Shown in pieces: positions 39,476 through 56,830 of a DNA stretch of 64,000 nucleotides (position 1 is the first letter of the stretch; each line of letters starts with the position of its first letter). The DNA comes from Hymenobacter sp. CRA2. GTDB taxonomy: Bacteria > Bacteroidota > Bacteroidia > Cytophagales > Hymenobacteraceae. The stretch lies in NCBI RefSeq assembly GCF_002007105.1, contig NZ_MVBC01000002.1:124001-188000 (forward strand), written 5' to 3'. Below the pieces are notes generated by a model. The model was not told where the DNA came from. It worked only from the letters and a program-made list of their open reading frames with translations, and did not search any database. A program made the position numbers and the translations under genes.

Positions 39476-40078
39476 ATGCGTAATTCCCTCGAATCTGGTG
39501 GCATCCTGCTGGGCGGCTCCTACCTGGAGCGCATGAGCGACGACGAATTCTTCGACTTCTGTCAGCAGCACCCCGACCTGCGCATCGAGCGCACCGCCCA
39601 TCACGAAATCCTGCTTATGTCGCCCACCGGCAGCCGCTCCGGCAAACGAAATTTTCGCCTTAACTTCCAGCTCGGTAAATGGTGGGAACACCACCAGGAG
39701 CTGGGCGAAGCGTTTGACTCCAACACTGGCTTCCGACTGCCTGACACCTCTATCCTCTCGCCCGACGCCTCTTGGGTATCGGCTGATAAGTGGAATGCCC
39801 TCACGCCGGAGCAGCAGGACAAGTTCGCTCCTCTGTGCCCGGAGTTCGTGGTAGAGCTGAAATCCAACACCGATTCGATCAAAGCCCTGCAAGCCAAGAT
39901 GCACGACTGGCTGCGCAACGGCGCCCGGCTGGCCTGGCTGCTCGACCCAGACACCGAAACGGCCTTTATCTACCGCCCCGGCCAGCCCGAGCCCGAAACA
40001 GTGCAGGGCTTCGATAACGAGCTGTCCGGCGAAGCGGTGCTGCCCGGCTTCCGGCTGCGGCTTTCGGAGCTGCGGTGA
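39476..40078 (+). CDS. Uma2 family (DUF820) putative endonuclease
   Basis: 200 residues. The Uma2 plan is clear: YLERMSDDEFFDFCQQHPDLRIERTAHHEILLMSPTGSRSG, then LPDTSILSPDASWVS, CPEFVVELKSNTDSI and a C-terminal LPGFRLRLSELR. The Asp in SPDASW and the ExK pair in VELKS form the PD-(D/E)XK active site. Uma2 proteins are abundant in cyanobacteria and some Bacteroidota, often in mobile contexts; their role is unproven. It is the first of several nuclease-like genes here. Confidence 0.9.
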   Translation: MRNSLESGGILLGGSYLERMSDDEFFDFCQQHPDLRIERTAHHEILLMSPTGSRSGKRNFRLNFQLGKWWEHHQELGEAFDSNTGFRLPDTSILSPDASWVSADKWNALTPEQQDKFAPLCPEFVVELKSNTDSIKALQAKMHDWLRNGARLAWLLDPDTETAFIYRPGQPEPETVQGFDNELSGEAVLPGFRLRLSELR

Positions 40079-40083
40079 GGCTG

Positions 40084-40596
40084 TTACAGTCGAACGATTT
40101 TCAAATCACCAGTCCGCCAAACATCAGTATCCCACCATAAAACATCCTGAAGGTCACGTACATCTTCTGGGAAGCGCTGACCATAAGCAGAGCCGTCTGT
40201 TCGACACCACTGGGATACAAAGCATATTGGCTGAGCCGGATAGTATGCTTTCTTCTTTTCGTTAAGCTCCGGTTGCCAGAATGATATCAGGCAGGTTTCA
40301 GTCCTCTCCAACAGGCTTCGGTCAAATTTGGCAGGGTATATAATCTGGCCGAGCCAGATTTTCAGGTTAGCCTCTCTGATTTCCTGCTTTTTATGATGCT
40401 TCTCATTTATCCGCGTTCTAAATTTTCCCTCCGTGATTCCACAATACAACGCCTTATCTGTTGATGCACGGCTGTATCTTTTTTTCCCAGTCAAAAGATA
40501 TAAGCCATTGCCATCTGGTAATTCCTGGATTTGCTCATAGGTATAAGGGCCTTTCCAACGCAACACTACCGTTTCAAGAACTTCGCTGTTTTCCAT
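40084..40596 (-). CDS. GIY-YIG nuclease-like protein, AT-rich
   Basis: 170 residues. The GIY-YIG elements are GLY (31-33), YCG (51-53), Arg60/Arg62 (KFRTRI) and the metal-binding Glu100 in LLERTETCLISFWQPELN, a typical LE..LI....P.LN ending. The function could be DNA cleavage in a defence or mobile context. The gene is clearly less GC-rich than the Uma2 and mutase genes around it, a sign of transfer. ATG at 40596 (MENSEVLETVVLRW) is preferred over the one at 40638. It converges closely on the Uma2 gene (5-base gap). Confidence 0.75.
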   Translation of the reverse strand: MENSEVLETVVLRWKGPYTYEQIQELPDGNGLYLLTGKKRYSRASTDKALYCGITEGKFRTRINEKHHKKQEIREANLKIWLGQIIYPAKFDRSLLERTETCLISFWQPELNEKKKAYYPAQPICFVSQWCRTDGSAYGQRFPEDVRDLQDVLWWDTDVWRTGDLKIVRL

Positions 40597-40643
40597 AAGA
40601 TATACTTTGCCACTAATATAGGAATTAGTGCCTAACACTCGTT

Positions 40644-40675
40644 AGCCCCGCGTGTCACCCCACCGGGGCTTTTTC
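40644..40675 (+). terminator. Terminator-like hairpin without an obvious upstream gene
   Basis: AGCCCCG and CGGGGCT arms followed by TTTTTCG on the plus strand, between the divergent GIY-YIG and mutase genes. It may be left over from a gene displaced by the insertion of the GIY-YIG gene. Confidence 0.4.
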
Positions 40676-40715
40676 GTACTTTAGCCGCCCATTTCCCACT
40701 CGTTCGGAATCTACC

Positions 40716-43700
40716 ATGCACCCAGCTCCCGTAGCTCCCTATAAACCCCAGAACCACGTCCGCATCGTCACGGCGGCCGCGCTGTTCGACGGCCACGACG
40801 CGGCCATCAACATCATGCGCCGCATCATCCAGGCCAGCGGCGCCGAGGTCATTCACCTTGGCCACAACCGCTCGGTGCAGGAAATCGTGGACTGCGCCAT
40901 CCAGGAAGACGCCCAGGCCATTGCCATTACCTCCTACCAGGGCGGCCACAACGAGTTCTTCAAGTACATGCACGACCTGCTGCAGGAGCGCGGCGCGGGT
41001 CACATCAAAATCTTCGGCGGCGGCGGCGGCGTGATTCTGCCCGCCGAAATCGAGGAGCTGCAGGGCTACGGCATCACCCGTATCTACTCGCCCGACGACG
41101 GCCGCGCCATGGGCCTGCAGGGCATGATCAACGACCTGCTCGAAAAAGCCGACTTCCCCACGGGCCAGAACCTGAACGGCGAAGCCGGCCACGTCAAGGA
41201 AAAAGACGCCCGCTCGCTGGGCCGCCTGATTTCGGCCGCCGAAAACTTCCCCGACGAGTTCGAGCGCGTGAAAGGCCAGCTCATTGCCGATTTCCAGAAG
41301 GCGGAGTTCGGCAGCGACCAGCGCATCAACGCGGCTTCGTCCTCGCCCAAGAAAGCCCCCATCCTCGGCATCACCGGCACCGGCGGCGCCGGTAAGTCGA
41401 GTTTGGTGGATGAGCTGGTGCGCCGCTTCCTGCTCGACTTCCCCGACAAGACCATTGCCATCATCTCGGTCGACCCGAGCAAGCGCAAGACCGGCGGCGC
41501 CCTACTCGGGGACCGTATCCGGATGAATGCCATCAACAACCCGCGCGTGTACATGCGCAGCCTGGCCACTCGCCAGAGCAACCTCGCCCTCTCGCGCTAC
41601 GTGCAGGACGCGGTGGACGTGGTGCGCGCCGCCGACTTCGACCTCATCATCCTCGAAACCTCGGGCATCGGGCAGTCCGACACCGAAATCATCGAGCACA
41701 GCGACGCCAGCCTGTACGTGATGACGCCCGAGTACGGGGCGGCCACGCAGCTGGAGAAAATCGACATGCTCGACTTCGCCGACGTCATTGCGCTCAACAA
41801 ATTTGACAAGCGCGGTGCCCAGGATGCGCTGCGCGACGTACGCAAGCAGTACCAGCGCAACCACCAGCTCTGGGAAACCAAGCTGGACGAGCTGCCCGTG
41901 TTCGGCACCATCGCCTCGCAGTTCAACGACCCGGGCATGAACCGCCTGTACCGGGCCGTGCTCAGCACCATTGAGCGCAAAACCGGGGCAGCCTTCCTGT
42001 CCCACCTCGAAACCTCGGAGGAACAAAGCGAGAAGGTGTATATCATTCCGCCCCACCGCACGCGTTACCTCTCCGAAATCACCGAAACCATCCGCCAATA
42101 TGACCAGTGGGCCGATAAACAAGCCGAAACCGCTCAGCAGCTCTACGGACTCCGCCAAAGCCTTGACGCCGTCCGGAGCCTTGGCGCCGCAAACGGAACC
42201 GGGGGGAGCAGCCGCGACGGACTCCAGCCCGATCAGCTCACAGCCGGCCTGGAGAAAACCTTCGAGGAAATCAAACTCCGGCTGGACGGGCAAAACTGGA
42301 AACTCCTGGAAACCTGGCCGCAAAAGGTAGCCGCCTACAAAGCCCCGGAGTTCGTGTTTAAGGTGCGCGACAAGGAAATCCGCATCAAGACGCACTCCGA
42401 AACCCTCTCCCACCTGCAAGTGCCCAAGGTGGCCACCCCGCGCTACACCGCCTGGGGCGACCTGCTCAAGTGGATGCTGCAGGAAAACGTGCCCGGCGAG
42501 TTTCCCTACACCGCCGGCGTGTTCCCCTTCAAGCGCGAGGGCGAAGACCCCACCCGCATGTTCGCCGGCGAAGGCGGCCCGGAGCGCACCAACCGCCGCT
42601 TCCACTACGTGTCGGCCGGCCTGCCCGCCAAGCGCCTGAGCACCGCGTTTGACTCGGTGACGCTCTACGGCGAAGACCCCGACCACCGTCCCGACATCTA
42701 CGGCAAAATCGGCAACGCCGGGGTGAGCATCTGCTGCCTCGACGACGCCAAGAAGCTCTACTCCGGCTTCAACCTCGCCGACCCGGTTACGTCGGTGTCG
42801 ATGACCATCAACGGCCCCGCCGCCCAGCTGGCCGCCTTCTTCATGAACGCGGCCATCGACCAGCAGTGCGAGCTGTACATCAAGGAGCACGGCCTGGAAG
42901 CGGAAGTCAACCAGAAAATCGACGCTATCTACCGGGAGCTGGGCCAGGAGCGCCCGCGCTACCAGGGCCAGCTGCCCGAGGGCAACGACGGCCTGGGCCT
43001 GATGCTGCTGGGCGTGACCGGCGACCAGGTGCTGCCGGCCGAAGTGTACGGGCCCATCAAAGCGCGCACGCTGAGCCAGGTGCGCGGCACCGTGCAGGCC
43101 GACATCCTGAAGGAAGACCAGGCCCAGAACACCTGCATCTTCAGCACCGAGTTTGCCCTGCGTCTCATGGGCGACGTGCAGGAGTATTTTATCAAGGAGA
43201 AGGTCCGCAACTTCTACTCGGTCTCGATTTCGGGCTACCACATTGCCGAGGCCGGCGCCAACCCCATCACCCAGCTGGCCCTCACGCTCTCGAACGGCTT
43301 TACCTTCGTGGAGTACTACGTGAGCCGGGGCATGGACGTGAACGACTTCGCGCCCAACCTCTCCTTCTTCTTCTCCAACGGCATGGACCCCGAGTACGCC
43401 GTGATGGGCCGCGTGGCGCGCCGCATCTGGGCCAAGGCCATGAAGCTGAAGTACGGGGCCAATGCCCGCTCGCAGATGCTGAAGTACCACATCCAGACCT
43501 CGGGCCGCTCCCTGCACGCCCAGGAAATCGACTTCAACGACATCCGCACCACGCTGCAGGCGCTGTACGCCATCTACGACAACTGCAACTCGCTGCACAC
43601 CAACGCCTACGACGAGGCCATTACCACGCCCACGGAGGAATCGGTGCGCCGGGCCATGGCCATTCAGCTCATCATCAACCGGGAGCTGGGCCTGGCCCGC

Positions 43701-44183
43701 AACGAAAACCCCATCCAGGGCTCCTTCATCATCGAGGAGCTGACCGACCTGGTGGAGGAAGCCGTGATGCTGGAGTTTGACCGCATCACCGAGCGCGGCG
43801 GCGTGCTGGGCGCCATGGAAACCATGTACCAGCGCGGCAAAATCCAGGAGGAAAGCCTGTACTACGAGATGCAGAAGCACACCGGCGAGCTGCCCATCAT
43901 CGGCGTGAATACCTTCCTCTCCTCCAAAGGCTCGCCCACGGTGCAGCCGGCCGAGGTTATCCGCGCCACCGAGGAGGAAAAGCAGTACCAAATCACGATG
44001 CTGCAGGCCCTGCACGCCCGCAACCGCGACAAAGCTGAAGAAGCCCTGAAGCGCCTGCAGCAGGTGGCCGTGCAAAACGGCAACCTCTTCGAGGAGCTGA
44101 TGGAAACGGTGAAGTCCTGCTCCCTCGGCCAGATTACCAACGCCCTGTTCGAAGTAGGCGGCCAGTACCGGCGGAATATGTAA
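40716..44183 (+). CDS. icmF: Fused isobutyryl-CoA mutase (B12-dependent acyl-CoA mutase with GTPase chaperone)
   Basis: 1155 residues in one chain. Domain 1 (about 1-150) binds cobalamin: [11 protein letters not shown] with His27 as lower ligand. Domain 2 (about 210-460) is a MeaI/ArgK-type GTPase with Walker [10 protein letters not shown] at 221-229, [17 protein letters not shown] and NKFDKRG. Domain 3 (about 560-1120) is the mutase barrel: [38 protein letters not shown]. This is the IcmF fusion, in which the G domain loads and protects the B12 mutase; it interconverts isobutyryl- and n-butyryl-CoA. Phe616 in TRMFAGEG fits isobutyryl rather than methylmalonyl specificity (inference). The gene has normal high GC between two AT-rich acquisitions. 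Confidence 0.95.
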
Positions 44184-44211
44184 GCTGAGGCGGCTGCTTT
44201 GCCATATAATA

Positions 44212-44268
44212 AGCCGAGTATACTTGTTATCTTGCATATCCAGCAAGATGGCTAGTATGCTCGGCTTC
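44212..44268 (+). terminator. Long hairpin at the icmF / Hachiman boundary
   Basis: Outer arms AAGCCGAGTATAC and GTATGCTCGGCTT (one mismatch) enclose inner arms ATCTTGC and GCAAGAT. CTAGTTTTTAG follows. It probably terminates the icmF transcript and marks the point where composition turns AT-rich. Confidence 0.6.
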
Positions 44269-44336
44269 TAGTTTTTAGATAGTACAGAGCGAAGCCAAGT
44301 GAGTTAAACTTCCCTCCAAATCTTAGTTTTAATAAA

Positions 44337-45122
44337 ATGCCATTCAAGGGAGTGAAAGTAGAAGCAGAGCCTGATTTTACGTTATGTTACGTAGAGGACT
44401 TCTGTATAGAATTCAAAAGAGAAATAAGAAATTGTTTAGCCAAACTATTCAGCGGCGCAGCCAATGTAAATGACAATTCAACTCTTTTTACATATAAGTG
44501 GACTGTTAAGGAATTTTTAGAACGATATAATGGGAAAGATTTAAAGACGAAAAAAGGAATGATAGGCGAATTACTTGCGCACATATTAATAAACAAGCAT
44601 CATTTATTGCTTAAAACAGTATCAATTTTAGCTAACAAGGAAGAGAGAAGCATAAGAAAGGGCTTTGACATTATATATCTCCATGACACTGACAACTCAA
44701 TATGGTATTCGGAAGTCAAGTCTGGAAACAGCAGACTAAAGGACTCGACAACCTATAACCGAGTATTACTAAATCGAGCTAAGACTGGATTAACAAATAC
44801 TCTACTAGAAAATAGTGACTATCGATGGTTTAGTGCAATTGTCGACGCTAGATTAACTTTAGATGGTCCGGATAAAATAAAGGCTAGCGCACTCTTATCT
44901 AATGATTTTCCAAGTAAAGATCTAAGTGTTGGCACAAAGAGGAACGTAATTATAATAACAGTTTTATACCATTGTTTAACGGATAGAATCTTGTCTGATA
45001 ATATAAAAAAATTCCAGAAAAAGCTTATCAAATCAGGTACGTTCCAAAAAAGCATAATCTTTTGCATACAAAAGACGACATACAAGAAAGTTGAACGTTT
45101 TTTGATTAAAGAATCCATTTAG
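44337..45122 (+). CDS. hamA: Hachiman anti-phage system protein HamA (DUF1837 nuclease-like)
   Basis: 261 residues with the HamA/DUF1837 plan: KWTVKEFLERYNGKDLKTKKGMIGELLAHILI, then a GFDIIYLHD strand and IWYSEVKSGNSRLKDS. Candidate active-site residues are Glu78 (GE), Asp111 and the Glu126-x-Lys128 pair (SEVKSG) of a PD-(D/E)XK-like nuclease fold. In characterised Hachiman systems HamA is held inactive by HamB and released to cut DNA on infection. Very AT-rich relative to the chromosome. It ends two bases before hamB (TAG CC ATG), so the two genes are one operon. TAGTTTTA just upstream may be the -7 box. Confidence 0.85.
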   Translation: MPFKGVKVEAEPDFTLCYVEDFCIEFKREIRNCLAKLFSGAANVNDNSTLFTYKWTVKEFLERYNGKDLKTKKGMIGELLAHILINKHHLLLKTVSILANKEERSIRKGFDIIYLHDTDNSIWYSEVKSGNSRLKDSTTYNRVLLNRAKTGLTNTLLENSDYRWFSAIVDARLTLDGPDKIKASALLSNDFPSKDLSVGTKRNVIIITVLYHCLTDRILSDNIKKFQKKLIKSGTFQKSIIFCIQKTTYKKVERFLIKESI

Positions 45123-45124
45123 CC

Positions 45125-47596
45125 ATGAACAAGGAAACATTAACAATTCCGCAGTTTCGCAAGGCACTAACAAGCTCGTACTTTGAAATAGCTTACTCTA
45201 AGCTAATTTCTAATAACGCCGATTCACTAGAAGAGGAAGAAAAACATTATTTATTAAAAACGGCTATAATACTATTAAATCAAATTGATTCCAGCCTTGA
45301 AAAGCTAGGATATAGAATTATATTATCTTATTGCAACCAATTCAAATTTTATATACCACTATACGATGTATCTATAAACAAAGGGTACATTCCAATATCT
45401 AAATACATAGAGAGGAATTTTCTACAAGAAAGAAGAAGCGAATCCGAAAATCGTTTTTTCAATGTATTGCTTTCTTCTTATAAGGAAAACTTCGCACAGG
45501 ATGGAATTTACTTATCAGAAGGCCAGCTAGATTTAGCAAAATTTGCTGCTTCAGCAGAAGGCGACTTTGCATTAGTCGCACCCACCTCATACGGCAAATC
45601 AGAAATAATCATAGATAAAATAAAGAAGAATAAATCCAAGAAAGTATGTGTGATTGTACCGACAAAATCATTGCTAGCGCAAACCAAACGACGGCTAATC
45701 AACAACGGCTCAGATAATGAACTGAATAAAATAATCACGCACCCTGATATGTATTTAAACAATCAGGAAAGCTTCATTGCTATACTTACTCAGGAGAGAC
45801 TATTAAGATTAATACAAAAATTTCCCGATTTCACGCTTGATATTCTTCTTGTAGACGAAGCGCATAATTTATTAAAAGGAGACGATAGAGCAATTTTGCT
45901 AGCGCAAGTTTTATTAATAACAAGAAAAAGGAATCCAAATTCTATCATTAACTTCTTCTCTCCGTTCATAGCAGACACCCGTAGCCTAGAATCCCCATAC
46001 TTACCCAAACAACTATCATATAAGAAGACTGAAGAATTCATAAAAATTGAGAAATATTTTTCTATTGACGTCCAGAATAATAAAAACCTTGAACTCTATG
46101 ACCAATTCACAAATAAGTTTATTCCCATAACAGGCCATAGTGGCACCACCGATTTAATATTCGTTAGCAAACACAAAGCAAGCAAGAATATCATATACTT
46201 AAACAAGCCACGAGATATAGAAAATTTCTCAATAAAAGCAGCAACGACAGAGCCTGAAAGGAGCCTGAATAAAGGCATTGATGAACTTATAGCATCAATC
46301 GCAGAATACGTACATCCTGAATATTACCTTATTGATTGCATCAAAAAAGGCACAGTGTATCACCATGGCTCAGTACCTGACATTATAAGATTGTATATAG
46401 AAAGCGCTTTCTCACAGCAGCAATATTTTGAATATATCGTTACAAACTCAACCTTACTTGAAGGAGTAAATATCCCAGCTGACAAACTATTCATTCTATC
46501 ACCTAAAATCGGCAATAGATACTTCACAAAACCAGAATTAAAAAACCTTATAGGGCGAATATGCAGGTTCAGTGAAATTTTTCACAGCTCAACAGGAAGC
46601 TTACAGCGCCTGGAGCCATCAATATATTTTATTAAAGGACAATATGTTAGCAACAAGGCAAACATTAATAATTTTATAGAACGCTCATTAAGATCTGACC
46701 TAGTCATCTTGGACGACATTGATAATGTACTTCTAAAAGACATTGATGATATAGAAGACTCTGATGAGAAGTCTAAAGCAGCAGAATCGTTAGAATATCT
46801 TGAGAACATCGAACCTAACACAGTTGATAGCAATTCTGTGACTTATGCACAATCAATAATCGCGCAGTTATGCTATAAAAACAACGTTCACGATTTCGAT
46901 ATCAAGAAAAACGAAGAAATTTTAAAGAAAAATTTTGCAGAAAACCTACTATTTGATATAAATACATCATCTTACCTAATACGAGCAATAACATTACTCT
47001 TTACCAGAGACATTGATATCTTGAACGAGCATTTCAAAAGAATGACGTCCCCTAGCGTTCAGCGGTACTACACCATTCTTTTGCAATGGAAGGCAGATGC
47101 TCTACCATTTAGTCAGATGGTTATTAATCTTGTAAACCTCTGGATGTCTTCTGATAACCCATTGATCTACGTAGGCAATAAATGGGGCGACATCAACTAC
47201 GAACAGAAAAAAGGATCAAATGGATACATAAACCGTAACCAGAAAACCGAAAAACAGCTTATCAATCTCGCTATTGTAAGAACCAAGGAGGAACAGGATT
47301 ACATAGACAACTACCTAGTTAAATATATCGAAATAATAAATGGACTAGGACTTATTGAGAACATGTTTTACAATAAAATAAAATACGGAACTGACAATCA
47401 GACCATAATCTGTTTTCTTAAGAACGGCTTTACTATAGAGCTGGCTCAAACACTCACAAAAGAAATTTACCAAGATTACATAACAATAGACCTTGAAACT
47501 GATACTATTATTATCAATCCAAACATAGCTCAAGCAATGTCAGAGAATGGAGAAAACAGAATACTAGTTTTTGAGGTCAAATATCATATCAGATAA
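45125..47596 (+). CDS. hamB: Hachiman anti-phage system helicase HamB
   Basis: 823 residues, superfamily 2 helicase. Motif I PTSYGKS (153-159), motif Ia VPTKSLLAQTKRRL, DEAH box at 244-247 (LVDEAHNLL), motif III-like FFSPFIAD, then in RecA domain 2 TNSTLLEGVNIPADKLFI (motif V) and motif VI GRICRF at 477-482. An N-terminal helical region of about 130 residues and a long C-terminal region flank the motor, as in HamB. It senses damaged or phage DNA and controls HamA. Composition is as AT-rich as hamA, unlike all other long genes here, so the pair was acquired together. All motor motifs look intact. Confidence 0.87.
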   Translation: MNKETLTIPQFRKALTSSYFEIAYSKLISNNADSLEEEEKHYLLKTAIILLNQIDSSLEKLGYRIILSYCNQFKFYIPLYDVSINKGYIPISKYIERNFLQERRSESENRFFNVLLSSYKENFAQDGIYLSEGQLDLAKFAASAEGDFALVAPTSYGKSEIIIDKIKKNKSKKVCVIVPTKSLLAQTKRRLINNGSDNELNKIITHPDMYLNNQESFIAILTQERLLRLIQKFPDFTLDILLVDEAHNLLKGDDRAILLAQVLLITRKRNPNSIINFFSPFIADTRSLESPYLPKQLSYKKTEEFIKIEKYFSIDVQNNKNLELYDQFTNKFIPITGHSGTTDLIFVSKHKASKNIIYLNKPRDIENFSIKAATTEPERSLNKGIDELIASIAEYVHPEYYLIDCIKKGTVYHHGSVPDIIRLYIESAFSQQQYFEYIVTNSTLLEGVNIPADKLFILSPKIGNRYFTKPELKNLIGRICRFSEIFHSSTGSLQRLEPSIYFIKGQYVSNKANINNFIERSLRSDLVILDDIDNVLLKDIDDIEDSDEKSKAAESLEYLENIEPNTVDSNSVTYAQSIIAQLCYKNNVHDFDIKKNEEILKKNFAENLLFDINTSSYLIRAITLLFTRDIDILNEHFKRMTSPSVQRYYTILLQWKADALPFSQMVINLVNLWMSSDNPLIYVGNKWGDINYEQKKGSNGYINRNQKTEKQLINLAIVRTKEEQDYIDNYLVKYIEIINGLGLIENMFYNKIKYGTDNQTIICFLKNGFTIELAQTLTKEIYQDYITIDLETDTIIINPNIAQAMSENGENRILVFEVKYHIR

Positions 47597-47602
47597 TAGC
47601 CC

Positions 47603-47633
47603 GGCTGGTATACGTCACAGATGTATACCAGCC
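47603..47633 (+). terminator. Perfect hairpin after hamB
   Basis: GGCTGGTATAC and GTATACCAGCC, 11-bp perfect arms with a nine-base loop, starting six bases after the hamB stop codon. No T-run follows (AATATAGG). It also lies at the composition boundary. Confidence 0.55.
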
Positions 47634-47670
47634 AATATAGGTTGAACCAATACACAGAAGCCCCAGCCTC

Positions 47671-47695
47671 CCTAAGCCGCCCCAGCGGCCAGCCG
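47671..47695 (+). repeat. 25-bp direct repeat, left copy
   Basis: CCTAAGCCGCCCCAGCG-G-CCAGCCG; the same 25 bases with one mismatch recur at 48369-48393, at the stop codon of the gene between them. CCGGGCGGCGC follows both copies. Confidence 0.6.
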
Positions 47696-47758
47696 CTCGG
47701 AGTCGTCCGGGCGGCGCTACTCGTACACTGCGGGTGCATTGCGTAAATTTCGGGTGCT

Positions 47759-48373
47759 ATGGCTTACACCGATTTCACCGTTTTCGACCTGCGCCAACAG
47801 TTCGGGGTACACTTCCGGGCCGACCACCTCTTTCCGGATGCAGCACCAGTAGCCCCGAGCGACTGGCTGCGCCAGTCCATCCGTATCGGGCAGGAAGTGG
47901 GCTTCAACAGCGAAAAGTCCCGTTCCGAGCGGCTGGTGACGCCCGTGCTGCTGGAGCTGTGCGAGCTGAACAACCGCTCCTTTTCGATTTATTCGGGCAT
48001 GAGCCTCGACATCGACCCGGCCCTGGGCCTGCGCGGCGAGTGTGGCTTCATTTGCTCGTTCAGCCGCATTCAGGACTTCATCACGGCCCCGGTCTTTTGC
48101 ATTGCGGAGGCCAAGAAGCAGGATTTGGAGCAGGGCATTATCCAGTGCGCGGCCCAGCTCATTGCCGCCCGCAAGCTCAACGAGCTGGAAGGCCATTCGC
48201 CCCGCACCCTGTTCGGCTGCTCTACCACTGGTATTGAATGGCGCTTTCTTAAGTACGAAGGCAACGAATTTGTACTTGATGAAGGGCGGTATTTAGTCAG
48301 CGACTTGCCCTCCTTGCTAGGCGTATTACAGCGCATCGTTGACTTGTCGCGGGAGCAGTTCCACGCAGCCTAA
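47759..48373 (+). CDS. Hypothetical protein with degenerate PD-(D/E)XK-like pattern
   Basis: 204 residues, soluble. The block NSEKSRSERLVTPVLLELCEL, then FSIYSGMSLDIDPALGLRGECGFICSFS, then APVFCIAEAKKQDLEQGIIQCAAQLIAARKLNE resembles uncharacterised Bacteroidota proteins with a restriction-endonuclease-like fold: Glu57, a GxxD-type turn and Glu117-Ala-Lys119. The expected Asp in the turn reads Gly96 (GECGF), so the site may be inactive. GC content is chromosomal, unlike hamAB. It is preceded and followed by copies of a 25-bp repeat. Role unknown; an accessory defence role is speculation. Confidence 0.68.
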   Translation: MAYTDFTVFDLRQQFGVHFRADHLFPDAAPVAPSDWLRQSIRIGQEVGFNSEKSRSERLVTPVLLELCELNNRSFSIYSGMSLDIDPALGLRGECGFICSFSRIQDFITAPVFCIAEAKKQDLEQGIIQCAAQLIAARKLNELEGHSPRTLFGCSTTGIEWRFLKYEGNEFVLDEGRYLVSDLPSLLGVLQRIVDLSREQFHAA

Positions 48374-48393
48374 GCCGCCCCAGCGACCAGCCG
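48369..48393 (+). repeat. 25-bp direct repeat, right copy
   Basis: CCTAAGCCGCCCCAGCG-A-CCAGCCG, including the TAA stop of the gene at 47759. See the copy at 47671-47695. Confidence 0.6.
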
Positions 48394-48396
48394 GTG

Positions 48397-48430
48397 CCGC
48401 GCCGCCCGGAGGCGGCCGGGCGGCGCGGTT
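48397..48430 (+). terminator. Terminator-like hairpin
   Basis: CCGCGCCGCCCG and CGGGCGGCGCGG, 12-bp perfect arms with an eight-base loop, directly after the gene at 47759; only a short TT follows. The remaining bases to 48577 hold nothing recognised. Confidence 0.6.
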
Positions 48431-48577: not shown

Positions 48578-50134
48578 CTATTTGTGCGCCTCCGCCCCGA
48601 TGAGCTCCAGCCGCCGCAGCCGGGCTTCGAATGCTTCGCTGGTGGCCGTGGCTTGGGCTTCGGCCGTGACGGCGCGGGTTTTCAGCGCTTCGATCTGCTG
48701 CTGCTGCTCCTTGATGGCTTCGAGTAGCACCGGCGTGAGCTGGGCATAGTTCACGGCCTTGTAGCCCTCGGCATCGGTGCTCACCAGCTCGGGGTAGATT
48801 TTCTCCACTTCCTGGGCAAGCATCCCCACCTGCTTGGCGCCGGCCGTGCCGCCATGGCGCACCCCCAGCGCGTTCCACTCGTAGCGCACCCCGCGCAGGG
48901 CCAGCACGGAGGCCAAGGGGCTGCTGATGGCCCGCACGTTGGTCTTGAAGCGCTGGTCGGAGGTGACGGCCACGTTGTTGGCTCGTATCTGGCCGCTCAC
49001 ATCCAGCTTGTAGCTAGGCGTACCCATGCCGATGCCCACGTTGCCGTTGCCCAGCACCCGCAGCAGCGTGGCGCCCGCCACGTCCTGGTTGGCCCCCTGG
49101 CTCACGTCAAGGGCGGCGGTGGTGCCGTTGTTGGCAATCTTGACGGCCAGGCCGGAGGCGTTGGCCGCGGCGTTGGCGTTGTAAAACATGCCCACGTAGC
49201 CGGTTTGGCTGGCGGCCCAGGCCAGGGAGCCGGGGTTGCCGCCAGAGCCTTCGCTGCCGATGATGTTGCTGGCGGTATTGGCCAGCTGGGAGTAGGGCGC
49301 GGCGACGTTGATGCCCACCCGGCCCGTGTTGGTAATGGCCAGGCCCGTGCTACCACCGTTGCCCACCAGGTAGTACGGGCCCAGGTTGAAGTTGGCTCCG
49401 GCCGCCGTAATGGGCTGCCAGGTGCCGTAGCCGACGCCGTCCGACGTCAGTACCTTGCCCGCGGCCTGCGTGCCATCGACGATGCGGATGGCCGAGCCAG
49501 TGTTGTTGTAGCCCGGGTTCTGGCAGATGCCCACCCAGCGCAGGGGCGTGGTGGTGCTGCCCGCCGAGAAAAAGCCTGCCCACCCGCCGCCGCGGTAGGC
49601 CGTGGCCCAGATACCGTAGTCGTTGGCTGTCGTGGTACCCTCGGGCAGCTTGCCGTAGCCGGAGAGCATCACGCGGGAGTAGCGGGCTCCGAAGTTGCTG
49701 CGCGTGATAAGCGCGGTGCTCTGCGTGCCCACGCTGGCGGTCAGCTCGACCTGGGCAGTGGAGTCGCCCAGGGAAGTGGCCGCGGTGCCCAACAGGCGCT
49801 GCGCATTCAGGTTGAGGGTCTGGGTGGCGGTGTGGTTGCCCAGGTTGTCGCCGGCGCCGAGGGAGGTCCAGCCGGCGGTGGCTTCGTAGTACCAGAAGCC
49901 AGGCATGCCATCGGTCTGGTACACCAGCAGGCCCGCGGGCACAGGCGCGGCAATGGCCGTGCGCTGGGCCTGGGTCAGGCGGGGCACCAGCACGCCCTTG
50001 TCGGTGGCTGTTACATCCAGGGCCGCTTTGGCATTGGGGGTGGCCGTGCCGATTCCCACCGAGCCGGCCGGCGCTTGTGCTTGGACGGCAATGGCAGCCG
50101 GCAGCGCGGCCAGCAGGAGTAACAGGTGTTTCAT
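48578..50134 (-). CDS. Tail fibre domain protein with C-terminal S74 intramolecular chaperone
   Basis: 518 residues. Signal peptide MKHLLLLLAALPAAIAVQAQ, then a head typical of Bacteroidota proteins of this kind (GSVGIGTATPNAKAALDVTATDKGVLVPRLT and FWYYEATAGWTSLG), a repetitive beta-rich stalk, and the endosialidase chaperone domain: NNVAVTSDQRFKTNVRAI, GVRYEWN, AKQVGMLAQEVEKIYPELV, YAQLTPVLLEAIKEQQQQIEAL. The Ser-Asp pair in TSDQRFK is the self-cleavage site. It is likely a trimeric surface fibre rather than a prophage gene, since no phage genes are nearby. The start is chosen at the signal peptide. Confidence 0.88.
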   Translation of the reverse strand: MKHLLLLLAALPAAIAVQAQAPAGSVGIGTATPNAKAALDVTATDKGVLVPRLTQAQRTAIAAPVPAGLLVYQTDGMPGFWYYEATAGWTSLGAGDNLGNHTATQTLNLNAQRLLGTAATSLGDSTAQVELTASVGTQSTALITRSNFGARYSRVMLSGYGKLPEGTTTANDYGIWATAYRGGGWAGFFSAGSTTTPLRWVGICQNPGYNNTGSAIRIVDGTQAAGKVLTSDGVGYGTWQPITAAGANFNLGPYYLVGNGGSTGLAITNTGRVGINVAAPYSQLANTASNIIGSEGSGGNPGSLAWAASQTGYVGMFYNANAAANASGLAVKIANNGTTAALDVSQGANQDVAGATLLRVLGNGNVGIGMGTPSYKLDVSGQIRANNVAVTSDQRFKTNVRAISSPLASVLALRGVRYEWNALGVRHGGTAGAKQVGMLAQEVEKIYPELVSTDAEGYKAVNYAQLTPVLLEAIKEQQQQIEALKTRAVTAEAQATATSEAFEARLRRLELIGAEAHK

Positions 50135-50158
50135 AACGGGGAGCAACAGGGTCTGAGT

Positions 50159-50166
50159 CAAAGGTA
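50159..50166 (-). promoter_or_regulatory. -7 box upstream of the tail-fibre-domain gene
   Basis: On the minus strand TACCTTTG (50166-50159), a full TAnnTTTG match, 25 bases before the ATG at 50134. Confidence 0.55.
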
Positions 50167-50206
50167 ACCAATAGAGCGGGCTGGGATTCGATAATCGTCC
50201 GCTACC

Positions 50207-50370
50207 CGGCGCCCGCTGGCACACGCCTGCGACGCGTGCCAGCGGCCCCGCGTCTCTGACGCGCATCAGCCGCGCCGTCTGGTCGATGCTCGTTCAACGA
50301 ATCGTTCTAACGGACGCGTCGCAGACGCAAAACCGGTCGGCACGCGTCGCAGACGCGCGCCAGCTTACCG
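50207..50370. repeat. Cluster of REP-like palindromic repeats
   Basis: A non-coding stretch with several related sequences: CGCTGGCAC and GTGCCAGCG as arms of one hairpin (50218-50243), then ACGCGTCGCAGACGC twice (near 50315 and 50352), and the variants TGCGACGCGTGCC and GACGCGCATCAGCC. The core GCGTC(G/T)C(A/G)GACGC is itself nearly palindromic. This is typical of REP elements or their decayed clusters. Confidence 0.6.
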
Positions 50371-53654: not shown

Positions 53655-54890
53655 ATGCATCTTAGCGCCCCGACCTCTCCTCTGCTCCCACCCATGCTCC
53701 GGGTTTCCGCTCCCATCCCATCCCGCACCCTGCCCGTCATCGTGCTGGCCCAATTCTTCTGCACCTCGCTCTGGTTTGCCGGCAATGCCATTGCGCCGGA
53801 GTTGGCGGCCACGCTGCACCAACCCGCCGCCTTCGTGGCCCACCTGACCAGCGCCGTGCAGCTGGGCTTCATCACCGGCACGCTGGTGTTTGCCCTGCTG
53901 GCCGTGGCCGACCGGTTTTCGCCTTCCCGCGTGTTCGGGCTCAGCGCCCTGGCCGCCGCGGCCTGCAACCTGGGCCTGAACCTGCCCGATGTGGACGCCA
54001 GCAGCCTACTGGCGTGTCGGTTTCTGACCGGCTTTTTCCTGGCCGGCATCTACCCCGTGGGCATGAAAATCGCCGCCGACTACGCCCCATCCGGCCTGGG
54101 CAAGTGGCTGGGCTTCTTGGTGGGCGCGCTGGTGCTCGGCACGGCGTTTCCGCACTTGCTCAAGAGCGGCGCCGTGCAGCTGCCGTGGCAGGCCGTGGCC
54201 TGGACCACCTCGGGGCTGGCGGTGCTGGGTGGCCTGGCCATGTGGGCACTGGTGCCCGATGGCCCCTATCGCCGCGCCGGGCAGCGCCTGCAACTCACCG
54301 CGTTCTTGAGCGGCTTCCGGCTGCCGCCCTTCCGGGCGGCGGCCTTTGGCTACTTCGGCCACATGTGGGAGCTGTACACCTTCTGGGCCTTCTTGCCCCT
54401 GATGCTCACCAGCTACAACCATACCCACCCCACGGCCGCACTGCCGGTGGCCGCCTGGTCGTTTGGGCTGATCGGGGCGGGCGCGCTGGCCTGCGTGGGC
54501 AGCGGGCTGCTCTCGCGGGCGGTGCCGGCCCGCCCCCTGGCCCTGGTAGCGCTGGCCTTGTCGGGGCTGTGCTGCCTGGTGTCGCCGCTGGTGCTGCAGG
54601 GGGCTTCGTCGGCCGGGCTGCTGGCCTTTCTGCTGTTCTGGGGTCTGGTGGTGGTGGCTGATTCGCCCATGTTTTCCAGCCTGGTGGCGCAGAACGCGCC
54701 CGACACCACGCGCGGCACGGCCCTGACCATCGTCAACTGCCTGGGCTTCGCCATTACCATTGCCAGCATTCAGCTCACCAGCTGGCTGGCCGGATGGGTG
54801 CCGCCGCAGCAGCTTTTTCTGGTGCTGGCCGTGGGCCCGGTGCTGGGGCTGCTGACCCAAATCGGCCGCCGCCCGGCCCCGGCATCGTAA
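53655..54890 (+). CDS. MFS transporter
   Basis: 411 residues with 12 predicted hydrophobic helices, for example LPVIVLAQFFCTSLWFAGNA, AVQLGFITGTLVFALLAVAD, LGFLVGALVLGTAFPHLL and ALTIVNCLGFAITIASIQL. The DRFSPSRVFG loop between helices 2 and 3 is the MFS signature loop. It resembles nitrate/sugar-type facilitators of the CynX/NarK breadth, but the substrate cannot be told; proximity to the sugar-acid operon is only suggestive. ATG at 53694 (MLRVSAPIPSRTLP) is an equally likely start. Confidence 0.85.
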   Translation: MHLSAPTSPLLPPMLRVSAPIPSRTLPVIVLAQFFCTSLWFAGNAIAPELAATLHQPAAFVAHLTSAVQLGFITGTLVFALLAVADRFSPSRVFGLSALAAAACNLGLNLPDVDASSLLACRFLTGFFLAGIYPVGMKIAADYAPSGLGKWLGFLVGALVLGTAFPHLLKSGAVQLPWQAVAWTTSGLAVLGGLAMWALVPDGPYRRAGQRLQLTAFLSGFRLPPFRAAAFGYFGHMWELYTFWAFLPLMLTSYNHTHPTAALPVAAWSFGLIGAGALACVGSGLLSRAVPARPLALVALALSGLCCLVSPLVLQGASSAGLLAFLLFWGLVVVADSPMFSSLVAQNAPDTTRGTALTIVNCLGFAITIASIQLTSWLAGWVPPQQLFLVLAVGPVLGLLTQIGRRPAPAS

Positions 54891-54989
54891 CCGCCGACGG
54901 GCACACTCAGCCGCTTAGGATACGCCGCCGTTCGGGCAGCTGCGGGCCTGATTCAGCCAGAAGCCCGGCCGCCAAACTGGGCAATTGCC

Positions 54990-54997
54990 TAGCTTTG
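54990..54997 (+). promoter_or_regulatory. -7 box directly upstream of the PBP gene
   Basis: TAGCTTTG, a full match, ends six bases before the ATG at 55004; a leaderless or nearly leaderless transcript is implied. Confidence 0.5.
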
Positions 54998-55003
54998 TCC
55001 TCT

Positions 55004-56830
55004 ATGCGCACGGCTTTCAATCAGTGGAAAAAGACGCTGCTGGCGGTGTTGGTGGGCCTAAGCGCCTGCTCCTCACCCGACCAGCAATCCGGCGGGCCCA
55101 CGGCCGGGCTGGAGGACGTGCGCATCCGCTACTCCGCCCGCCGCGTGGTGCTGCCCGAGGTGCCCGAGCGTGGCCGCATCCTCGACCGCCACGACTCAGT
55201 GCTGGTGGCCACTCGCCTGCAGTACCTGTTGCAGCTGCCGCGCCGCGGCCCCCTCGATACCCTGAAACTGGGCGAACTGCTCGGCTGGGACTCCACCACC
55301 GTGCGGCGGCGCGTTGCCGAGGCGCTGCCCTACCCGGGCGCCGCCGGCACCCTGGTGCAGCTGCGCCTCAGCGCCACCGAAGCCGAGCGCCTACGCCTCG
55401 ACAGCAGCACCACGGTGCCCAACCTGACGCTGCTGGAGCAGCGCCGGCGCACCTACACCACCCCGGCCGGCGCGGCCGTGCTGGGCTACACGGCCGCCGA
55501 GGCGCAGCCGTTTTTCCGGCAGGCCAAGCGCACGGGCCGGGGCCGCTTCTACCGCCTGCGCAACGGCGGCGTGGAAAGCTACTACAACGGCCTGCTTAGC
55601 GGGCACCGCGGCTACCTGCACCCCCTGCTCGATAAGCAGGGCCGCCAGCACGGCAGCTGGGCCAAGGACACTGTCTTCCAGCAAGGCCAGGACCTGCACC
55701 TGACCATCGACGCGAAGCTGCAGGCTTACGCCGAAAAGCTGCTTGGCAACCGCAAAGGCTACCTCGTGGCCCTGGACCCGCGCACCGGCGAAATCCTGGC
55801 CTACGTGTCGGCGCCGGTGTACCAGGCCGCCACCGTCACCGCTCCCGATCAGGCCGCCATCCGCGCCGAGCTGCTGGAGCACGAAGACCTGCCGCTGCTC
55901 AACCGGCCCGCCATGCTGGCCAACCCACCCGGCTCGGTGTTTAAGCTGGTGAATGCCGCCGTGGCCCTGCAGATGCGCGCCATCACGCCCGCCTCGGCCT
56001 TTGCCTGCGACCAGTCGCTGGTGAGCTGCGTGCACCGCCACCGCCCCGCCAACACCCTGACCGCCGGCCTGAAGTACAGCTGCAACCCCTACTTCTACCA
56101 GGTCATGCGCCGCCTTATCGACTGCGTGCCCGACACCTTGGCCGGCGACACCATCGGCGCGCGCCACGCCAATCTGGCCCAGTGGCGCCGTTACGCCCGC
56201 TCGTTCGGGCTGGATTCGGTGCTGGGCGTGGATTTGCCCCGCGAGGCACCCGGCTTTCTGCCCACTCCGGCCTACTATGACAAGGCCCGCCGCACCCGCG
56301 GCTGGACCTACCGCTCCATTTACTCGCTGAGCCTGGGGCAGGGCGAAATCAACCTCACCGGCCTGCAAATGGCCAACATGGCCGCCATCATTGCCAACCG
56401 CGGCTGGTACTACCCGCCCCACTTGGTGCGCAGCGTGGGCACGAGCGGCCCGCTGCCGCGCTTCACCCGCAAGCACCGCACCCTTATCGACAGCGTGCAC
56501 TTCGCGGCGCTGATACCGGGCATGGTGGCCGTGCTGCAGCGCGGCGGCACCGCCGATGCCTCCAGCCTGGCCGACGTGGGCATCACTGTGGCCGGCAAAA
56601 CCGGCACCGTGCAAAACGACGAGGGCGACGACCACGCCGCGTTTGTGGGCTTTGCTCCGGCCAACAACCCCAAGATTGCCGTGGCGGTGTACCTCGAAAA
56701 CGCCGGCTTCGGGGCCACGGCAGCGGCCCCCTGCGCCGTAATGGTGATGGAAAAGCACCTGCGCGGCTACGTCGCGCCCAAGCGCAAGCGGTGGGAACAG
56801 CGCATCGTGCGCCGGGCCCAGGGCGAATAA
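55004..56830 (+). CDS. Penicillin-binding protein, class B transpeptidase, with lipoprotein-like signal
   Basis: 608 residues. Dimerisation region (VRIRYSARRVVLPEVPERGRILDRHDSVLVATR, the class B RGxIxDR motif) and transpeptidase domain with S311-VFK (PPGSVFKL), S359-CN and K532-TG (AGKTGTVQ). It cross-links peptidoglycan, PBP2-like. Unusually, the N-terminus reads MRTAFNQWKKTLLAVLVGLSACSSPDQQ, which looks like a lipoprotein signal with lipobox LSAC rather than a plain membrane anchor. A frame open to 54794 lacks a sensible start. No rod or division genes are adjacent, so this is perhaps an accessory PBP. Confidence 0.9.
   Translation: MRTAFNQWKKTLLAVLVGLSACSSPDQQSGGPTAGLEDVRIRYSARRVVLPEVPERGRILDRHDSVLVATRLQYLLQLPRRGPLDTLKLGELLGWDSTTVRRRVAEALPYPGAAGTLVQLRLSATEAERLRLDSSTTVPNLTLLEQRRRTYTTPAGAAVLGYTAAEAQPFFRQAKRTGRGRFYRLRNGGVESYYNGLLSGHRGYLHPLLDKQGRQHGSWAKDTVFQQGQDLHLTIDAKLQAYAEKLLGNRKGYLVALDPRTGEILAYVSAPVYQAATVTAPDQAAIRAELLEHEDLPLLNRPAMLANPPGSVFKLVNAAVALQMRAITPASAFACDQSLVSCVHRHRPANTLTAGLKYSCNPYFYQVMRRLIDCVPDTLAGDTIGARHANLAQWRRYARSFGLDSVLGVDLPREAPGFLPTPAYYDKARRTRGWTYRSIYSLSLGQGEINLTGLQMANMAAIIANRGWYYPPHLVRSVGTSGPLPRFTRKHRTLIDSVHFAALIPGMVAVLQRGGTADASSLADVGITVAGKTGTVQNDEGDDHAAFVGFAPANNPKIAVAVYLENAGFGATAAAPCAVMVMEKHLRGYVAPKRKRWEQRIVRRAQGE

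Follow-up and report, generated by a model that had tools for sequence, protein, structure and literature searches.

Integron cassette arrays, and islands inserted at the 3' ends of conserved genes, are familiar cases of gene units that gather at one chromosomal site. Hotspots of gene transfer on chromosomes are likewise an established general concept, with transferred genes concentrated at a few sites under rapid turnover (PMC5635113, accessible part). Hachiman, the defence system with which we are concerned here, has already been published together with its mechanism. In Escherichia coli ECOR31 it is a two-gene operon that encodes a nuclease with a D-E(X)K site, HamA, and a superfamily 2 (SF2) helicase, HamB; the double change E138A,K140A in that site ablates defence, and an N-terminal helical bundle of HamB (NAH) binds HamA (PMC12278908, accessible part). 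We analyzed a 64,000-nt stretch of Hymenobacter sp. CRA2 (NZ_MVBC01000002.1, contig positions 124,001-188,000, forward strand), hereafter the window, in whose coordinates all positions are given. It contains icmF, the gene for a fused isobutyryl-CoA mutase (40716..44183, +; NCBIfam IcmF 1790.8 bits, cut-off 1500), whose C-terminal 200 aa were matched in 197 of 200 genomes of the family Hymenobacteraceae (E<=1e-80). Judged by its sequence, the segment that follows, 44337-47596, is with high probability a complete and likely working Hachiman system, and one occupant of a variable slot that lies directly behind icmF and has the 3' end of that gene as its left edge.

We recognise a complete Hachiman cassette adjoining icmF, as a preliminary description of this DNA had proposed, because profiles, active-site residues and fold all point to it. 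The first gene, hamA (44337..45122, +), encodes a putative effector nuclease of 261 aa that scores 34.0 bits against Pfam PF08878 (HamA/DUF1837); the preliminary description had staked its claim on this score, which lies above the cut-off of 25. The second gene, hamB (45125..47596, +), follows on the same strand after a 2-bp gap, and the overlap that had been described between the two is absent. Its product, a predicted SF2 helicase of 823 aa, matches PADLOC HamB1 at 4.1e-72 over residues 11-808, with DEAD and ResIII exceeding their Pfam cut-offs and Helicase_C falling just under. The residues picked out earlier as catalytic in HamA, Glu78, Asp111 and Glu126-x-Lys128, proved invariant in an alignment of 10 family sequences, and the helicase motifs are intact as claimed: APTSYGKS at 152-159, DEAH from 244 and, as motif VI, NLIGRICR at 474-481, with the Walker A residues, D244, E245, G477, R478 and R481 invariant in six sequences. 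In a wider set of 66 HamA-HamB pairs drawn from 81 sequences, 63 show GE...D...ExK by a loose expression, the exceptions being L216, L217 and G148 (there a piece of hamB had been picked as hamA; G and L numbers are our labels for genomes and loci). The only significant Foldseek match of the HamA AlphaFold2 model in the PDB is 8vxy_A, E. coli HamA (E 1.4e-4, probability 1.00; next match E 0.21). Several results weigh against this identification: the model is of moderate quality (predicted local distance difference test score 73.6, template modelling score ~0.48), the PADLOC HamA profile matches weakly (E 0.001), NCBIfam gives HamA no match, a single-sequence phmmer search with HamA found no relevant chain in the PDB, and a HamA profile search ranks AbpA-type PDB chains above E. 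coli HamA. Relative to the ECOR31 system, the window HamB is shorter (823 aa against 1174 aa in 8vx9_B) and has DEAH where E. coli HamB has DEGH (PMC12278908, accessible part), sequence similarity is low, and the operon sits in the slot behind icmF. By analogy with published E. coli HamAB, the HamB helicase would survey DNA and restrain HamA through its N-terminal domain, until damaged or open DNA, as during phage infection, frees HamA to destroy phage and host DNA; the window hamAB may act in phage defence in the same way.

The hamAB segment stands out from the chromosome by its composition, as had been noted, with a GC content of ~0.35 (~0.34 for the two genes) in a surrounding region of ~0.64. 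In 500-bp intervals GC is 0.30-0.40 across 44250-47749; most intervals beyond these limits have 0.6-0.7, and those at ~40000-40750 fall to 0.46-0.49. The AT-rich segment was delimited at 44151-47700. We compared this arrangement with the DNA downstream of icmF in 68 of the 197 family genomes with icmF: G085 and G148, taken for their HamB, seven congeners, and a remainder picked in approximate order of match rank, a few being passed over. These loci and the window make 69, from which three in low-GC genomes (L092, L094, L095) were dropped. An AT-rich segment (at least 400 bp, GC below 0.44, starting at most 300 bp from the icmF stop) was present in 55 of the 66 GC-rich loci, or in 52 of 63 if the window, G085 and G148 are set aside. 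The same measure applied to 400 kb each of G007 and G163 found such a segment at 2.2% and 4.8% of random points and behind 3/146 and 6/121 long open reading frame (ORF) 3' ends. The first low-GC ORF shares the strand of icmF in most loci. Clustering of 91 low-GC slot ORFs (at least 60 aa, GC below 0.50, start within 1.5 kb; 68 loci, low-GC genomes included and the window excluded) gave 70 clusters, 57 of them singletons; by sequence, the slot occupants are mostly unrelated to one another. Even within the window's genus code the first occupants differ in all eight genomes, despite ~89-95% identity between the icmF DNA of the window and that of its seven congeners.

The relatives' slots hold TIR, PLD, GmrSD, Mrr and AAA defence-type proteins, lipoprotein-like proteins, many unknown genes, and pairs that we take to be toxin-antitoxin-like. 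Five of ten chosen proteins had a PADLOC match, and the named ones include PLD, GmrSD/NsnA, TIR and AAA/HEC-01-type proteins. For the 59 of 81 slot proteins that were scanned, each Pfam or PADLOC family was matched by one member, in a scan that had no control set and from which no enrichment in defence is drawn. The slot genes of L149 (G083), L138 (G024) and L140 (G200) include a PDDEXK_2 transposase-like nuclease (PF12784, 117 bits), a PIN-like protein below cut-off, and a protein without a Pfam match, accompanied by a short partner, that is presumably ART-like.

A HamB at least 64% identical to that of the window was found in three of 200 family genomes: that of the window, G085 (H. perfusus LMG 26000, L152) and G148. 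In all three, hamAB lies directly behind icmF, and both G085 and G148 belong to another genus code. In G148 (L034 5890-8353, -) hamB is broken by a stop and a frame change and the neighbouring hamA is open. No close HamB is present in the seven congeners of the window's genus code, all of which have icmF; two of them show distant helicase matches of ~30%. Among the 79 loci listed in a contig scan, the next HamB after that of H. perfusus is 47% identical and comes from Flavobacteriia. As the same HamB clade is found behind icmF in another genus code and 55 of 66 loci are AT-rich, we suggest from these sequence comparisons that the icmF 3' end is a standing, highly variable slot in the family, in which most of the relatives compared have some other gene of foreign appearance. 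The earlier proposal of a recent acquisition therefore holds in part: it agrees with the lack of a close HamB in the seven congeners, and both the standing slot and the presence of this clade behind icmF in another genus code speak against it. A plasmid or phage carrier was considered and rejected; the icmF 3' end matches six plasmid records, none from Hymenobacter, and HamB matches 50 plasmid and four phage records, all at less than 60% identity. The slot shares with the hotspots described for chromosomal gene transfer the concentration of transferred genes at few sites and their rapid turnover, and differs from them, as far as the accessible part of that account goes (PMC5635113), in that its gene units are short, that some of them carry a duplicated 3' end of a single metabolic gene, and that there are gene families whose close copies sit almost only at one site. 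In the open-access literature we found no paper on the icmF slot or on Hymenobacter defence.

How genes enter the slot is suggested by partial copies of icmF. When the last 59 icmF codons were searched against 204 family genomes (E<=1e-6), 198 gave a match and 18 gave more than one; G194 and G198 have two full copies, and the other 16, all of genus code g5, have at least one short copy. In a follow-up of 20 genomes, this copy lies downstream of the icmF end on the same contig and strand in 15 of the 16, that of G195 being located at a contig edge. Further remnants were seen in G136 at E<=1e-3 and, as a 60-bp piece, in G097. The segment that recurs in this way behind relatives' slot genes corresponds in the window to the final ~177 bp of icmF and its stop (44004..44183, +). 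Aligned by eye with the resident icmF, 9 of 11 remnants begin at about -183 to -162 of the icmF stop, and those of G185 and G083 are longer. In eight cases (G089, G024, G160, G105b, G200, G099, G148 and G097; also by eye) the remnant abuts the stop codon of the preceding gene with no spacer, and in G105a the preceding gene is interrupted. Mismatches between remnant and resident icmF amount to 0.10-0.12 per site in the last 60 bp and 0.04-0.07 in the preceding stretch, summed over the 9 gap-free remnants among 15, with six left out; G083 and G193 show no such gradient.

We infer that genes enter by recombination within the last ~170 bp of icmF. If an incoming molecule with its own icmF 3' end crossed over with the resident icmF, the latter would stay whole and the new gene would come first, and the old icmF 3' end would remain as a remnant, pushed back together with the older genes. 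Relatives agree less at synonymous sites in the last 50 icmF codons than in the preceding ones, in a comparison made with no matched set of other genes, and synonymous identity falls to 0.32 in the last 20 codons between the window and H. perfusus; this fits replaced 3' ends. A bolder reading, which we propose tentatively and with less than even confidence, is an integrase-free cassette system in Hymenobacteraceae. The last ~170 bp of icmF would dock units composed of a short operon and an icmF 3' end, newest first, drawn from a partly site-confined pool of defence and toxin-antitoxin-like genes that turns over faster than species split, and a block of nuclease plus docking region would be exchangeable on a constant Hachiman helicase. 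Some observations count against our reading of the slot. The window has no second copy of the icmF 3' end; its DNA agrees with that of congeners as far as 18 bp beyond the stop of icmF, with no sign of a foreign icmF end, so hamAB would have entered 3' of the stop or together with an almost identical icmF end; and 11 of the 66 loci have no AT-rich segment at the icmF stop. Like integron arrays and 3'-end islands, the slot collects gene units at one site, has a repeat directly behind some genes, and leaves the 3' end of the target gene whole. By position, icmF 3'-end repeats lie between some of its units, where an integron would have attC-type sites. It differs from both in that no PF00589 tyrosine recombinase was seen nearby in 11 genomes, contig ends allowing, and in a repeat that is ~170 bp of icmF coding sequence with remnant ends that vary.

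The alternative that fares best, although we judge it rather unlikely, is that a site-specific recombinase acts from elsewhere in the genome, with the 3' end of icmF containing its attachment site and the remnants representing halves of that site. This would agree with the starts of 9 of 11 aligned remnants within ~20 bp of one another, with the use of the slot in 55 of 66 loci, and with the 4 to 10 PF00589 matches that each of 11 genomes has elsewhere. On the contigs of these 11 genomes, however, no PF00589 match was seen closer than 50 kb to icmF, in a view that is cut in G105 and G083 and slightly in G085 and in a search that did not extend to serine recombinases, transposases or other recombinase families. 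The 5' ends of the remnants also vary, with two of 11 longer, and at codons 49-56, counted from the end of icmF, codon conservation matched by amino acid (+0.11) does not exceed that of other stretches (up to +0.18). Three candidate sites were rejected: a conserved DNA site at icmF codons 50-60 from the end, which looked striking until it was matched by amino acid and then did not exceed other stretches; GGAATATGTA as an attachment-site core, whose codons are those of the conserved C-terminus and whose exact copies beyond icmF occur in two loci only, both within remnants; and the standard icmF terminator as the right border of cassettes, of which a few stray copies were seen.

Three gene families further tie the slot to particular genes. 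The PD-(D/E)xK nuclease-like gene that follows hamB in the window (47759..48373, +; PADLOC PD_DExK 3.6e-40, no Pfam family) belongs to a recurrent slot family, for which 19 of 204 genomes together have 31 places. The 12 places with 65% identity or more are all on the icmF strand, 10-7,570 bp behind that gene; among the 19 of lower identity, five are elsewhere, that of G203 (55%) is ~0.7 kb behind icmF, and the remainder are without position. For the family we call MALHNK, 9 of 10 places (at least 59% identity) lie 12-8,388 bp behind icmF on the same strand, and the tenth (41%) is on another contig. The METIQ family has 18 places in 15 genomes; 15 of the 16 checked lie 64-10,449 bp behind icmF and one is on another contig (G201 and G015 unchecked), and the seven best copies (at least 59% identity) sit 64-69 bp behind it. 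In G194 and G198, METIQ genes stand at equal offsets behind both full icmF copies, by duplication or an assembly effect.

Such position-bound families weigh against our reading of the slot in one respect, as old residents that most lineages have lost could give the same picture. In its full form this explanation, which we consider improbable, holds that no special insertion takes place and that the genes behind icmF are vertically inherited and have been lost or have diverged at differing rates. It gains from the identities of hamB (0.80 across 2.4 kb) and icmF (0.85) in the window and H. perfusus, from the match of the window PD-(D/E)xK gene to its copy in G101 (87%) alongside an IcmF C-terminus 90% identical there, and from the patchy presence of slot families at one locus. 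It is opposed by the change of first occupants across the eight genomes of one genus code despite their similar icmF DNA, by the duplicate icmF 3' ends, which loss alone would not create, and by a slot composition out of line with the chromosome. As remnants are present and occupants differ within one genus code, we favour insertion over old residence.

The case for an exchanged nuclease block comes from comparison with the HamAB of H. perfusus LMG 26000, which is also located directly behind icmF. The two systems are alike in the HamB core (residues 131-823, 83% identical) and unlike in the first 130 HamB residues (60%) and in HamA (42%). Nucleotide identity is 0.45-0.65 before position 45517 and 0.71-0.86 after it, with the jump at ~45517, near hamB codon 131. 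As the N-terminal bundle of E. coli HamB binds HamA, the differing block would comprise the nuclease and its probable dock, hamB codons 1 to ~131 (45125..45516, +), to which we assign a HamA-docking (NAH) role by this analogy. A HamA tree of 17 rows joins the window with G148 (99/96) and rejects a grouping of the window with H. perfusus (approximately unbiased test, p 0.022, for a group picked after the identities had been seen), whereas a quick HamB tree joins the window and H. perfusus (Shimodaira-Hasegawa-like approximate likelihood ratio test 99). These sequence comparisons indicate that hamA and the HamA-docking start of hamB were probably exchanged, in one lineage or another, with the helicase motor kept. 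An explanation without exchange would be that HamA and the HamB N terminus have evolved faster, and HamA is indeed usually somewhat less conserved than the HamB core (mean 0.38 against 0.43 in pairs with a core of 0.40-0.55). We give this account little credence: among pairs of 65 sequences, every other pair with a core of at least 0.75 has a HamA identity of at least 0.67, against 0.42 here, the identity step is sharp, and the HamA and HamB trees conflict. The open-access literature contained no paper recognisably on HamA exchange.

AbpAB (8zue, 9wh1) is the other described system with HamA-like and HamB-like proteins, and its PDB sequences score above those of E. coli HamAB. That the window pair is an AbpAB-like relative and not Hachiman proper is very improbable, for all that a HamA profile search scores 9wh1_A (AbpA/HamA C-terminal domain, 2.3e-12) and 8zue_A (AbpA, 1.9e-11) above 8vx9_A HamA (0.47), and HamB likewise 9wh1_B and 8zue_B above 8vx9_B, since AbpA has an extra N-terminal nuclease domain fused to a non-catalytic HamA-like domain that lacks the D-ExK residues retained in the window (PMC12278908, accessible part), and the window HamA, with a length of 261 aa, gives one HamA match only, finds HamA as its best fold match and has a partner that PADLOC names HamB. 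In PDB entries 9wh1, 9whk and 9whu the helicase chain is labelled DNA polymerase theta and its partner AbpA/HamA C-terminal protein, and the former label looks wrong.

The remaining features of the window concern the borders and neighbours of the cassette. Hairpins occur at both borders, in agreement with the preliminary description: the left one (44211..44267, +) folds at -37.1 kcal/mol (z -9.1 against shuffles) and the right one, 3' of hamB (47603..47633, +), at -24.2 kcal/mol (z -6.0). A consensus terminator scan listed neither, and the left hairpin is unlike the GGGTGCTACC...GGTAGCACCC hairpin found 3' of icmF in many relatives. The PD-(D/E)xK protein in the window reads GECGFI at one stretch; among nine aligned copies, seven read GECDFI and one GECNFI, and given GECGFI the window copy is possibly inactive. 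Its gene is flanked by GC-rich repeats at 47652-47716 and 48369-48428 that are, by look only, similar to repetitive extragenic palindromic (REP) sequences; both resemble stretches 3' of icmF in G006 (L026), the second also in L025 and L028. Further downstream, a penicillin-binding transpeptidase gene (54794..56830, +; PF00905 154.3 bits) is a recurring downstream neighbour of the slot, and many of the 68 loci have DNA matches to it behind icmF. A protein with a Peptidase_S74 (chaperone of endosialidase) domain is encoded at 48578-50266 (-), and a low-GC ORF of 184 aa at 40084-40638 (-) adjoins the start of icmF; it has no family in three libraries and is GIY-YIG-like by eye.

The natural mismatch between the HamA proteins of the window and H. 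perfusus offers a way to test directly by which region HamB recognises its nuclease. If our reading of the slot is right, it raises the question of how genes gather at one site without a nearby integrase, and reading the genes behind icmF would be a way to find new defence genes of Hymenobacteraceae.

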